A stretch of DNA of 64,000 nucleotides from Candidatus Accumulibacter contiguus (GTDB lineage Bacteria; Pseudomonadota; Gammaproteobacteria; Burkholderiales; Rhodocyclaceae): positions 62,001-126,000 of the forward strand of contig NZ_SPMX01000012.1 of NCBI RefSeq assembly GCF_012940005.1. The letters run 5' to 3'. The translations under genes and the position numbers were made by a program. This document shows positions 10,722 through 49,484 of this stretch, piece after piece; position 1 is the stretch's first letter; each line of letters starts with the position of its first letter. The notes beneath the pieces were generated by a model, which saw nothing but the letters and a program-made list of their open reading frames with translations, had not been told where the DNA came from and ran no database searches.

Positions 10722-11435
10722 TCAGGCCTTGCGGCGGCGGTTGCAGCCAAAGGCAAGCAAGCCCAGGCCCACCAGGCCAAGGCTGACGGGTTCGGGTATC
10801 GGCGCCGCTGCGTCCGACTGGAGTCTGACTTTGTCGACCAACAGCGAAGATTCCCTGTTGGTATTCGCGCCTTGGAGAGCGGCGAAGCTCAGGGTATGGG
10901 AGCCCGCGCCAAGAGGAACGGTCCGGGTAATCCAGTCCGTTGCTCTCGTATAACCTGCAACTCCAGACCCGAATACAGTGCCAGTGCCGCCGGTATCACC
11001 GAGCGCAAGCGCAATTCCGTCCAGGACGAAAAACGAGAAGTCATTTGCGAGAGTGGTCTCATTTGTGGCGAAACGCCAATCGAATTGCAGGGTATCTCCT
11101 CCGGCACCAACAGTAAAGGTCTGCTGGATTGCACCTCCATTGATGAAGGCTGGTGTGTAACCCGCGGGAGACTTGATTGCCCGGAGAGCTGCATCCGAAA
11201 CACCAACAAAGGCTTCGAGACCTGCGGCGTTGTTTGCCCCTCCAAACAGGGCAGTAACGCGGGCCGATTTGAATCCGTCTGTTGTCGTCCCGGAAGTCGG
11301 CGGATTGTCGAAAACCCCGGTGGAACCGAAGGTAGTCCAGCTGGTAAGTCCAGACTCGAAACTTCCATTGACGATGCCAGCAGATGCCTGGAGTGCGGTA
11401 GCCGCCAACAGGGCAGAAAGTAGTACACGTTTCAT
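10722..11435 (-). CDS. PEP-CTERM sorting domain exported protein
   Basis: 237-residue secreted protein. The signal peptide is MKRVLLSALLAATALQASAG and the mature part starts IVNGSFESGLTSW, a beta-rich carbohydrate-binding-like fold by appearance. The C-terminus is a classic PEP-CTERM signal: PIPEPVSLGLVGLGLLAFGC followed by a basic tail (NRRRKA). The family is recognised by exosortase and is associated with exopolysaccharide and floc formation; no exosortase lies in the window. The start is ATG 11435, preceded by AGGGG; the frame is open upstream but the signal peptide fixes the start. A sigma-54 promoter lies about 100 bases upstream. Confidence 0.92.
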   Translation of the reverse strand: MKRVLLSALLAATALQASAGIVNGSFESGLTSWTTFGSTGVFDNPPTSGTTTDGFKSARVTALFGGANNAAGLEAFVGVSDAALRAIKSPAGYTPAFINGGAIQQTFTVGAGGDTLQFDWRFATNETTLANDFSFFVLDGIALALGDTGGTGTVFGSGVAGYTRATDWITRTVPLGAGSHTLSFAALQGANTNRESSLLVDKVRLQSDAAAPIPEPVSLGLVGLGLLAFGCNRRRKA

Positions 11436-11535
11436 ATGATGACCCCTATAAGTGTGAGATAACGTGATAGACAAACCAAGCCGCGGCCCGGACTGGGCTG
11501 AATTTGGGTGATCTGCGTGAGGTACGTGAGATCCA

Positions 11536-11551
11536 AGCACGTTGTGTGCCA
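11536..11551 (-). promoter_or_regulatory. Sigma-54 (-24/-12) promoter for the PEP-CTERM gene at 10722-11435
   Basis: Minus strand TGGCAC-ACAAC-GTGCT against the consensus TGGCAC-N5-TTGCW. It lies about 100 bases before the start codon. An AT-rich motif (11614-11631) sits 63 bases further upstream, where an enhancer-binding protein site is expected. Confidence 0.72.
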
Positions 11552-11613
11552 TAAACTAAAAATTTTAAAAGTCAATGAGTTACATGGATCACCATGGCCC
11601 CTGTTGTTTTTGG

Positions 11614-11631
11614 TGTAAAAAAATTCCGACA
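11614..11631. promoter_or_regulatory. Shared AT-rich upstream motif, site 1 (candidate enhancer site)
   Basis: TGTAAAAAAATTCCGACA, 63 bases upstream of the -24 element. Related sites precede the genes at 12634 and 13736 (common core AAAATTT-n-CGACA). Confidence 0.5.
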
Positions 11632-12208
11632 CTTACTGATGCGTTGTTGCTCATCGTGCGTTTCGGATCGCCATGCTGGAAAAGCAAGCCCTCCCCATTC
11701 CAGCCGGCTGTGAACCAGTATAGGATACTGTGGAAGTAACGCAACATTGAATCCCGGTCCTGAAGCAGCACCGCCTCGAAGCGCTACCGTTAGGCAGCAA
11801 TAGTCCCGGTGCCTGGGCTCTGGTCTCGCCATGCCCGGCTGGCGCAAAAGGATTGCTCGCAAGAGGTGCACGGGGGTGATCATGACGAGGACGCAAGGAG
11901 CCGTCATGAAATTGATTGATCGTGGGCTGCAGGAGTTGGCCGCTCAAGAAATAACGAGAGGTTCGGATCCCCGCTGGTTCAGAGGGGCCGGCGAGGACGC
12001 CAGCCATCACGACCTACGCCCCGACGATCAACTTCGTCTTGGAGGAGAGGATTGCGCCCGGCAACCGAGGGAATTGCATACCCGCACACGAGCTGGGTTC
12101 ACCGTAGCGCTGGCCTCGGTCACAAGCTTGGTGATGGCGCCTTAGCCACGAAAAATCCCGCCTGGCCAGTACTGACTGAACATTCCGGACGCCACGCGCC
12201 GGCTCGGG
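11632..12208. other. Gene-poor interval, nothing recognised
   Basis: About 580 bases with only short, mutually overlapping reading frames on both strands and no ribosome-binding site or protein I recognise. It could be decayed sequence. No inverted repeats, RNA gene or transposase remnant could be supported by eye. Confidence 0.4.
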
Positions 12209-12634
12209 TCACGGGCAAGCACCTATCCCCGGGCGTATTGAAAAAGGGAACTCGCCATTGGGTCCGCAAAACGAGTAGGTCCCGCCATTGTCCTTGACGT
12301 CATAAGGGTAAGAGTTGCTGCCATAGCTGTGAATGACCTTCGGAAGAATTCCGCGACTGGGACTGGCTGGTGAAATGGTCCAGGTGCCGACCGGTTCCCC
12401 CGGACCAGCCGGTCCCCACTCCAGGAGGCGGCCAGTGGTAGTACCAGTACTACCTTCATGGTGCTCCTGCCATTTGCACGAGGAACCGCTGCAGCCAGCT
12501 GGCGAGCAGACCGTTTTACCGGGCAGGTTAGACTTGAGCCATGTTTCGTTCTGGTAAGGTGGTGAGCAGACTGCCATTGCTTCCCCCGAAATCCAGGAAA
12601 GAACGACGATACTGGTGAGCATTGCACGCTTCAT
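12209..12634 (-). CDS. Exported cysteine-containing hypothetical protein
   Basis: 141-residue protein with a signal peptide (MKRAMLTSIVVLSWISGEAMA) and a mature part with six cysteines (for example CSPAGCSGSSC and a C-terminal GACP), suggesting disulfide bonds outside the cytoplasm. No PEP-CTERM tail and no family that I recognise. The motif GRLLEWGPAGPGEPVGTWTI may form a beta hairpin. It lies between two PEP-CTERM genes and has the same promoter arrangement as both (sigma-54 element about 110 bases upstream, AT-rich motif 62 bases beyond it), so it probably belongs to the same regulon. Ribosome-binding site GAGGAG upstream of the ATG. Confidence 0.75.
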   Translation of the reverse strand: MKRAMLTSIVVLSWISGEAMAVCSPPYQNETWLKSNLPGKTVCSPAGCSGSSCKWQEHHEGSTGTTTGRLLEWGPAGPGEPVGTWTISPASPSRGILPKVIHSYGSNSYPYDVKDNGGTYSFCGPNGEFPFSIRPGIGACP

Positions 12635-12743
12635 GACCGTTTCTCCTCATAGAATGATTAAGCATATCGGTGTCCACTTGTGGTGGGGTGACAAGTCGTG
12701 ATGTCGCGATACTGCAGCCTGGCAGGTCTCGTGAAATGCGAAG

Positions 12744-12759
12744 GGCAAATTTCATGCCA
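12744..12759 (-). promoter_or_regulatory. Sigma-54 (-24/-12) promoter for the exported protein at 12209-12634
   Basis: Minus strand TGGCAT-GAAAT-TTGCC, with the invariant GG and GC at the right 10-base spacing. It lies 110 bases before the start codon. Confidence 0.7.
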
Positions 12760-12820
12760 TGAAAAATTTGCATTGATTTATCCAGAACATACGATAAGAG
12801 CGATTGCTCGGTGCTGTCAA

Positions 12821-12836
12821 TGTAAAATTTGCGACA
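12821..12836. promoter_or_regulatory. Shared AT-rich upstream motif, site 2 (candidate enhancer site)
   Basis: TGTAAAATTTGCGACA, 62 bases upstream of the -24 element, the same distance as site 1. Confidence 0.5.
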
Positions 12837-13073
12837 AGAAATCCTGGGCAAATTCTTCCCAGAGACATGCGCGAAAACGGGTTTCGGGCCCGTTACACGC
12901 GTTTGTATCATGAGCAGTGTTCTATCGCCGGCTGGGAGCAAGGCAAATCTGTGGCAGCAGTGGGAGACCGCGATGGAACCGTGGATGCAGATTCGTTCAC
13001 GGCCTATCCATTGACGCTGATGCTCGTCCTGCAACGGTGAGCGTAATGTATTCTTCAGTCGTAATGAGGCGAA

Positions 13074-13736
13074 TCAGGTTTTCTGCTGCCTGCGTACGGC
13101 TCCCAGGCCAGCCAGACCTATGCCCAACAGTATCAGTGAGGCAGGTTCGGGAACGAGGGTACTGCCACTCTCATACACCAGCTGCACATAGGGCGACACG
13201 CCCGCGTAGCCGCCTGTGACTGGACTGCTAAAATTCGAAATATTCGCATTCTGCGAAATCTCGGTGATCGGGCCGTCAGTGAGGTTCTTGACAATCCACC
13301 GACCGGTCAGCGTCGAACCTATTCCGTCACCCAGAATGCCGACATCGTAGGTCTTGCCGGCCAGGAAAGTGAACGCGAACGGGTCGGTATACAGGAAGGT
13401 CTGGGTCGGGTTGTTCGAATAGAACTTCGTCTGACTGAACAGCAGGTTGCCGGTGCCGCCGAGCGCGCTGTCGAAGATCACGAACTTGATGTTCTGGTCG
13501 CCGCCAACGGCGGAAAACACGCCAAACTGGGTGATACTGACATTGGACGAGAATGAAAGAACCGCCGCATAGTTGTCACCGGAGCCGCGCTCTTCCGTAA
13601 AGCAAGTTTCCGTCGCGCATTGCGGTTCGCCCAGCGCCTGGCTGTCAAAGACGACGCCCGCGAAGGCTGGCACGCTAACGTACATCAGGGCGCCAAAGAG
13701 GGTGCTTGCCAATATTGACTTGCCGAATCTGATCAT
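13074..13736 (-). CDS. PEP-CTERM sorting domain exported protein
   Basis: 220-residue secreted protein. Signal peptide MIRFGKSILASTLFGALMYV...AFA, a beta-rich middle with an early Cys pair (CATETC), and a C-terminal PEP-CTERM signal: PEPASLILLGIGLAGLGAV followed by RRQQKT. Predicted to be processed by an exosortase and displayed or released in the extracellular matrix. Start ATG 13736 has GGAGAC six bases upstream; the frame is open slightly further but lacks a signal-like N-terminus. A sigma-54 promoter lies about 100 bases upstream. No sequence similarity is obvious to the other PEP-CTERM protein except in the sorting tail. Confidence 0.92.
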   Translation of the reverse strand: MIRFGKSILASTLFGALMYVSVPAFAGVVFDSQALGEPQCATETCFTEERGSGDNYAAVLSFSSNVSITQFGVFSAVGGDQNIKFVIFDSALGGTGNLLFSQTKFYSNNPTQTFLYTDPFAFTFLAGKTYDVGILGDGIGSTLTGRWIVKNLTDGPITEISQNANISNFSSPVTGGYAGVSPYVQLVYESGSTLVPEPASLILLGIGLAGLGAVRRQQKT

Positions 13737-13825
13737 TGAAGTCTCCATGAAGTTGGTCAACCAAGGAAGAAGCCAGGACACACCGGCCTCTGTTCAGGGA
13801 CGTGGTCTGCGCTTACGGTTTCCAA

Positions 13826-13841
13826 AGCACGTTTCATGCCA
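13826..13841 (-). promoter_or_regulatory. Sigma-54 (-24/-12) promoter for the PEP-CTERM gene at 13074-13736
   Basis: Minus strand TGGCAT-GAAAC-GTGCT. The -12 half (GTGCTT, followed by TGG) is identical to that of the PEP-CTERM promoter at 11536-11551. Confidence 0.72.
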
Positions 13842-14301
13842 CAACACTTTCGGACTCATATATCATTTTTCTTGGCATCGATTCAATGATCATATAAATC
13901 AAAATTTTACGATAAGCTTACGGGATTAAGCAGGGTTGGCATGAATCAGTTCAAGCGTCGATCATGTCATTGCTTTATATAAATTTTCTATCGCAATAAA
14001 CTCATTTGTTATTGCCGGATCGCGCCGGATCGACTAGAGGGGGAGCGGCGGGACTCGGGAGAAAAATCGTTCGAACTGTAAAATTTATCGACAATGCGAG
14101 CGATGAACTTTGCGGGACGATTTCCAGTCTTTGCCTGTGCATTTGTCATGGGACATGACAAGCGCTGCTGCACATCTGCCATTTATTCTTTCAGAGATTT
14201 TCCGGCGCCACCGCCGAGGCCCTCTCGTGGCCATCTTGCCGGAGCAGGTCGATGCGCTGCTGGCCTGGGCCGTAGAGGCGATGTCGCGCCTGTACGGCTG
14301 C
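13842..14301. promoter_or_regulatory. AT-rich upstream region with two copies of the shared motif
   Basis: No gene. Contains an AAAATTTTACGATA variant at 13902-13915, 60 bases from the -24 element, and a fuller TGTAAAATTTATCGACA at 14077-14093. The stretch 13850-14000 is notably AT-rich compared with its surroundings. The remainder (14094-14301) holds only overlapping shadow frames. Confidence 0.45.
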
Positions 14302-49468: not shown

Positions 49469-49484
49469 TGGCCCAATTATTGCT
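49469..49484 (+). promoter_or_regulatory. Sigma-54 (-24/-12) promoter of nirBD-narK
   Basis: TGGCCC-AATTA-TTGCT with correct GG/GC spacing, 40 bases before the nirB start codon. This fits nitrogen (NtrC) control of nitrate assimilation. Confidence 0.68.

Follow-up and report, generated by a model that had tools for sequence, protein, structure and literature searches.

A stretch of 64,000 nucleotides from Candidatus Accumulibacter contiguus (class Gammaproteobacteria, family Rhodocyclaceae; contig NZ_SPMX01000012.1, positions 62,001 to 126,000), here called the window, holds three neighbouring genes for exported-looking proteins, each preceded by a sigma-54 promoter with a -24/-12 element and, further upstream, by an AT-rich core (Table 1). 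Two of these genes encode PEP-CTERM proteins, and the candidate regulator of the cluster is the response regulator PrsR. The analysis described below suggests that each promoter may be organized as a three-part device, in which a PrsR site, a site for integration host factor (IHF) and the sigma-54 promoter stand at spacings related to the turns of the DNA helix.

Table 1. Genes and promoter features of the three-gene cluster, in positions of the window
Feature	Positions	Strand	Details
Gene 1, exported-looking PEP-CTERM protein, 237 amino acids	10722-11435	-	Open reading frame with start
Gene 1 sigma-54 -24/-12 element	11536-11551	-	TGGCACACAACGTGCT; TGGCAC-N5-GTGCT, GG-N10-GC
Gene 1 IHF-like site, near slot	11570-11582	.	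8/9 of WATCAANNNNTTR
Gene 1 candidate PrsR site (motif 1)	11614-11632	-	GTGTCGGAATTTTTTTACA; TGTCG-N8-TTACA, class form plus 1 base
Gene 2, exported-looking protein, not PEP-CTERM, 141 amino acids	12209-12634	-	
Gene 2 sigma-54 -24/-12 element	12744-12759	-	TGGCATGAAATTTGCC; TGGCAT-N5-TTGCC, GG-N10-GC
Gene 2 IHF-like site, near slot	12779-12791	.	7/9, weak taken alone
Gene 2 candidate PrsR site (motif 1)	12821-12837	-	TTGTCGCAAATTTTACA; TGTCG-N6-TTACA, class form minus 1 base
Gene 3, exported-looking PEP-CTERM protein, 220 amino acids	13074-13736	-	
Gene 3 sigma-54 -24/-12 element	13826-13841	-	TGGCATGAAACGTGCT; TGGCAT-N5-GTGCT, GG-N10-GC
Perfect IHF consensus	13897-13909	.	9/9; overlaps AT-rich core 13898-13915 above gene 3
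Motif-1 copy, probably the distal PrsR site of gene 3	14077-14094	-	TTGTCGATAAATTTTACA; class form TGTCG-N7-TTACA

Three sigma-54 promoters and their genes

The three -24/-12 elements had been located in an earlier note on this DNA, and all of them stand. Sites of this form number three in the window, compared with a mean of 0.3 in 100 Markov shuffles (maximum 2), and the three promoters are real, beyond chance. A composite of upstream motif and sigma-54 element, in a pattern loosened enough to let in the proximal core of gene 3, also occurs three times, compared with none in 100 Markov shuffles. The distances given in the note, 100 to 110 bases to the start codon and about 60 to 63 bases to the upstream core, apply to gene 1 (100 nt from the end of the -12 element; spacer 62) and gene 2 (109 nt; spacer 61) and fail for gene 3 (89 nt; 56-57 nt to its proximal core). 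A further near-consensus sigma-54 element, TGGCCCAATTATTGCT, lies at 49469-49484 on the plus strand, away from the three-gene cluster.

The upstream cores were compared with motif 1, a 17-nt sequence that ends in TTTACA and whose predicted binder is PrsR, as described in the main text of Haft et al. (2006; PMC1569441). Genes 1 and 2 and the copy at 14077-14094, the extra copy that the note had reported, all end in TTTACA, with lengths from TGT to ACA of 18, 16 and 17. The claim of one shared motif is not supported for the core at 13898-13915, above gene 3, which reads TAT...GAT where motif 1 has TGT...ACA.

Genes 1 and 3 exceed the cut-offs of both TIGR02595 (18.5 and 27.2 bits; cut-off 16) and PF07589 (21.1 and 31.3 bits; cut-off 20.7), and gene 3 also matches floc_PepA at 35.6 bits, under the cut-off of 80. 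Gene 2, which had been counted with them as a PEP-CTERM gene, lacks the domain; it matches none of the NCBIfam families, and its single Pfam match falls under the cut-off. That gene 2 might be a broken PEP-CTERM gene was considered and rejected; in the window, TIGR02595 matches genes 1 and 3 and nothing else. Of 149 other family genomes, 7 have a diverged relative of gene 2; six of these relatives read as whole proteins that have no terminal PEP-CTERM domain, and the seventh holds stop codons. Because a scan found a PrsR-type promoter upstream of just one of the seven, PrsR control of this gene family is not conserved. A search for gene 2 in named genomes yielded 19 pattern stretches, none of which was confirmed.

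The predicted PrsR regulon in the genome and across the class

The genome (5.02 Mb in 167 contigs), probably that of a sludge bacterium, encodes the expected regulator and the machinery around it. Its best PrsR match scores 736.8 bits (cut-off 502.6; runner-up 341.8 bits), and among the best 80 loci the nearest named relatives of this protein are Candidatus Accumulibacter proteins, at no more than 91% identity. Next to prsR lie genes for PrsT, for PrsK in two frames and for an XrtA/PEP-CTERM glycosyltransferase; PrsR and PrsT are each in a single frame. RpoN is present in the genome, as is exosortase A (XrtA, 351.2 bits).

A stricter composite pattern gave seven matches genome-wide and none when reversed. 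Five precede PEP-CTERM genes, one precedes gene 2 and one an operon. On contig C77 (6929-11145), a PrsR-type promoter heads an apparent four-gene operon, which encodes, with domain names assigned by eye, an exported-looking protein of 116 amino acids, a PD40/TolB-like protein, a protein of 596 amino acids with a dockerin-like tail and, last, a PEP-CTERM protein. A promoter profile built from 11 sites, including the proximal core of gene 3, found 21 places in the genome at E<0.01, the 11 building sites among them. PEP-CTERM-type genes or the C77 operon follow 16 of the 21, with 13 over the TIGR02595 cut-off and three recognized by eye (C72, C96:216656 and C13:62107); six of the ten places outside the building set qualify in this way. 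The enrichment at PEP-CTERM genes for which the earlier note had proposed to look is thus present, and its central proposal, in which sigma-54 promoters with a PrsR enhancer site form a PEP-CTERM regulon, has good support and had already appeared in print in 2006 (Haft et al., 2006; PMC1569441). One profile match, C52:99191, was rejected as a PrsR target; it matches the sigma-54 half only and precedes what appears by eye to be a P-II-like (glnB/glnK) gene.

In a set of 274 class genomes, the composite pattern is present in 28 of the 73 that encode PrsR and in 7 of the 201 that do not (Fisher p 1.5e-12). The reversed pattern gave two matches, compared with at least 62 real ones among those listed. 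When one locus per genome was considered (n=29), ten downstream genes passed a crude test for a PEP-CTERM tail and four more appeared PEP-CTERM-like by eye; the others comprise further exported-looking proteins, a GGDEF protein recognized by eye and likely chance matches. The inner gap of motif 1 is exactly 7 (TGTCG-N7-TTACA) in 47 of 53 class matches outside the window's own genome, though gaps of 4 to 10 were allowed. The search pattern itself accounts for part of the constancy of the motif's ends. Among 23 copies in the own genome, 15 have N7, seven are one base longer and one is shorter.

Several further observations concern the reach of motif 1. Among three high-scoring copies (L094, L097 and L104), two have no sigma-54 site of at least 9/12 within 500 bp; L104 has a weak sigma-54 site, and the orphan copies sit on contigs C110 and C129. 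The high-scoring copies are possibly long-range sites or relics. In the own genome and one other (L105 and L121, the latter from G335), a PrsR-type promoter precedes the gene for a small protein whose start, RRRLLK or RRKLLK, is twin-arginine-like.

Spacer geometry and the proposed looping device

The distance between the PrsR site and the promoter is not distributed evenly. A pattern allowing wide gaps has matches in 178 of 395 family genomes, with no match to the reversed pattern among those listed. The 150 listed sites (23 genomes; five sites from the own genome) have spacers that peak near 52, 63.5, 74.5, 86 and 97 bp, with a best period of 11.2 (R 0.83). The ladder persists when the peak at 58-68 is removed (R 0.84, n=93) and when one site is drawn per genome (period 10.9, median p ~2e-7, n=23). 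In the class, searched for spacers of 40 to 70 and counted over N7 matches from other genomes, spacers fall at 52-54 (7), 59 (1) and 61-65 (39), such that only one of the 47 falls outside 52-54 and 61-65. The own genome keeps to the ladder within 2.5 bp at 19 of 20 sites (p 2.6e-6), all but the proximal core of gene 3, and a further site, C13:62109 with a spacer of 87, is also on it; own-genome spacers lean to about 63 because the promoter profile does. Together, these distances suggest a ladder of whole turns of the DNA helix.

The sequence within the spacers is likewise ordered. Spacers were scored for the IHF consensus WATCAANNNNTTR, with the site centre set at its W base because the two orientations then coincide in slots near the promoter; the same centre also brings them together in the far slots, which lie one more turn away from it. 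Matches of at least 7/9 lie in the fixed slots of 30 of 46 class promoters, the set with full sequence from which the 59-bp site was left out. The corresponding counts were a mean of 2.5 (maximum 9) after shuffling and 12.1 (maximum 21) after column permutation, with 1000 trials each, 2 when strands were swapped, and 1 to 5 when the slots were shifted by 5-6 bp. In 91 family sites with full sequence, among which short and long spacers were deliberately over-sampled, near slots were matched at 8 of 13 promoters with spacer 52 and 21 of 23 with spacer 63, and far slots at none of either. Longer spacers show the opposite preference: far slots were matched at 10 of 17 promoters with spacer 74, 22 of 32 with 86 and 5 of 6 with 97, compared with 2, 3 and 1, respectively, for near slots. 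A best unique site of at least 8/9 was found for 20 of 46 promoters in the class set and 40 of 91 in the family set. Measured from the -24 element, most of the centres are 19-20 or 30-32 bp upstream; measured from motif 1, most are 33, 43-44 or 54-55 bp away, and the exceptions are scattered. Genes 1 and 2, whose IHF-like centres are 19 and 20 bp above the -24 element, fit this geometry of ladder and slot.

The near slot is also occupied, by an IHF match of 9/9, in a good composite of motif 1 and sigma-54 element at C44:71034-71132 (25.6 bits). The gene that follows this composite encodes, by eye, an NADP-dependent-oxidoreductase-like protein, which is surprising as a PrsR target.

These regularities point to a three-part PrsR-IHF-sigma-54 looping device at each promoter, to which a probability of about 0.78 is assigned. 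PrsR is a response regulator of the NtrC type that PrsK is expected to activate, and it would occupy the TGTCG-N6-8-TTACA site. IHF would bend the DNA between this site and the promoter, bringing PrsR against the RpoN-RNA polymerase waiting at -24/-12, and ATP hydrolysis would then open the promoter. Because the loop would be short and stiff, both of its arms would have to be whole helical turns, which would give rise to the spacer ladder. At gene 3, the device would consist of the remote PrsR site at 14077-14094 together with the IHF site at 13897-13909.

The assignment at gene 3 departs from that of the earlier note, in which all listed AT-rich cores were one and the same site. The proximal core at 13898-13915 has neither the TGT nor the ACA end of motif 1, and it overlaps a 9/9 IHF consensus that has no equal elsewhere in the 64 kb. 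The PrsR site of gene 3 is therefore more likely to be 14077-14094, which lies 235 bp above the -24 element, and the proximal core is more likely an IHF site than a PrsR site. Within the 235-bp stretch, an IHF match of 9/9 has a chance probability of 0.0255, a test made after the match had been seen. A sigma-54 promoter belonging to the 14077 copy itself was rejected; there is no GG-N10-GC between this copy and the promoter of gene 3.

An alternative that keeps the earlier view, with all four AT-rich cores as PrsR sites, gene 3 having a proximal site and a spare distal one, and IHF playing no part, is considered unlikely. The proximal core does reach 12/16 on an ad hoc scale for motif 1 and was found by the promoter profile at 37.8 bits, a match that is circular, its sequence having been in the alignment. 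The repetition of motif 1 that this alternative requires is known to occur sometimes (Haft et al., 2006; PMC1569441, main text). Weighed against this are the missing ends, the overlap with the window's sole perfect IHF consensus, and a spacing that is the only one of 20 to fall off the ladder.

A looping device in which some other protein takes the place of IHF at the spacer element, or in which that element is A/T-rich DNA with an intrinsic bend, would also account for the ladder. It is in keeping with spacers that are A/T-rich near the slot and with the part of the slot signal retained by column-permuted sequences. The slot matches nevertheless exceed all 1000 column permutations and are strand-specific, and curvature alone would need no WATCAANNNNTTR letters, which makes this alternative rather improbable. 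Finally, that AT-rich words and GG-N10-GC merely happened to fall near three genes might be imagined, short consensus matches being common in a 5-Mb genome, and is already refuted by the reversed-pattern controls in the genome, family and class and by the Markov shuffles of the window.

A number of observations weigh against the PrsR-IHF-sigma-54 device. Of the 46 class promoters, 16 lack a slot match at 7/9 and 25 lack an 8/9 site anywhere in the spacer; furthermore, the slots were chosen after part of the data had been seen, and those data also enter the class count. The listed family sites come mostly from the window's own genus, such that orthologous promoters are not independent, and spacers above 70 bp were searched for in the window's own family only. 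Long spacers in the own genome are mixed, with C65 (spacer 74) having a 9/9 match in the near slot and C50 (84) a match in the far slot, while the best IHF matches of C13:38029 (85), C72 (96), C52 (97) and C117 (107) lie elsewhere. Genes 1 (N8) and 2 (N6) depart from the N7 class form, which the distal copy has. With regard to the regulon, no match to the strict pattern was found in 45 of the 73 PrsR genomes, and only 12 of the 36 genes above the TIGR02595 cut-off in the own genome have a strong composite site, gene 3 being included on the score of its reinterpreted proximal core. Two points concern the proteins themselves. IHF subunit genes were not found by regular expression over the examined stretches, with no profile search made, and PrsK is split into two overlapping frames in this assembly (contig C50; L068:10777-12892). 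PrsK is in one piece in all 11 congeners with a match (21 genomes searched; one further congener had no match), and the split may reflect either an error in the assembly or a frameshift. A real split may impair the regulon's sensor.

An extension of the device to the whole PrsR regulon is favoured, if less firmly. A single mechanical rule would apply, whereby the two arms each vary by whole helical turns and new members, including exported proteins other than PEP-CTERM proteins, are recruited by hitting the ladder. The arm pairs under such a rule would be about 33+19, 44+20, 43+31 and 55+31 bp, possibly also 65+31, and gene 3 would represent a long-arm version. If true, this would provide a sharper rule for finding PrsR targets and for separating PrsR sites from IHF sites, as at gene 3.

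Comparison with known systems

The promoters described by Haft et al. have motif 1, a spacer of 62.8 +/- 10.6 nt (range 32-92) and then the sigma-54 motif 2, GG-N10-GC; the main text also reports a few sites before non-PEP-CTERM genes (Haft et al., 2006; PMC1569441). The promoters of the window resemble these in the TTTACA end, a spacer of about 63 nt, motif 2, a long leader, mostly PEP-CTERM genes downstream and a genome with PrsK/PrsR/PrsT and exosortase. The spacers of genes 1 and 2 lie within 32-92, and GG-N10-GC is present in all three promoters. They differ in the whole-turn ladder with its IHF-like slot, in gene 2, which is not a PEP-CTERM gene, and in the probable distal site of gene 3, which at 235 bp lies beyond the reported maximum of 92; the main text of that study does not mention IHF, integration host factor or bending (Haft et al., 2006; PMC1569441).

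Two experimental systems come from other genera. The pepA gene of Aquincola tertiaricarbonis is, like genes 1 and 3, a PEP-CTERM gene with a -24/-12 promoter; it is RpoN1-dependent, its -24/-12 element has been mapped, and an enhancer sequence is predicted upstream (PMC9850573). In Zoogloea, PrsK-PrsR is required for floc formation, as summarized for prsK and prsR mutants (PMC9012009). The passages on these two systems mention neither a PrsR footprint nor IHF, and they assign to the PrsR regulon surface proteins that activated-sludge bacteria need in order to form flocs (PMC9012009; PMC9850573). The kind of promoter and PrsR as its predicted binder were thus already known, and the ladder with IHF slots is the added part.

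Desulfovibrio vulgaris belongs to a distant lineage. Its regulator DVUA0057 was predicted by Haft and is taken here as the PrsR of this species; in DNA-affinity-purified chip (DAP-chip) experiments, it bound the five PEP-CTERM targets predicted for it, along with several further ones (PMC3333781). This regulon resembles the present one in its PEP-CTERM-linked response regulator and in several targets with sigma-54 promoters; a common motif is predicted there for two regulators (PMC3333781; PMC4641369). The main text of the latter study makes no mention of IHF, helical or spacing (PMC4641369). In the open-licence literature, no account was found of the spacer ladder, of the spacer content of PrsR promoters or of PEP-CTERM together with integration host factor, though one may exist elsewhere.

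The closest mechanical parallel is provided by IHF-assisted sigma-54 promoters such as nifH and Pu, which combine an activator site, an IHF bend, a -24/-12 element and dependence on the face of the helix. The window promoters share this order, with an IHF consensus between candidate activator site and promoter at all three genes (8/9, 7/9 and 9/9, respectively). The face-of-helix rule for sigma-54 activation is known from single promoters. At nifH and Pu, the geometry was shown experimentally on such promoters, whereas here the comparison of many promoters leads to a similar inferred geometry for a regulon. If true, the ladder with its IHF slots in about 200 natural sites would make the face-of-helix rule readable from genomes.

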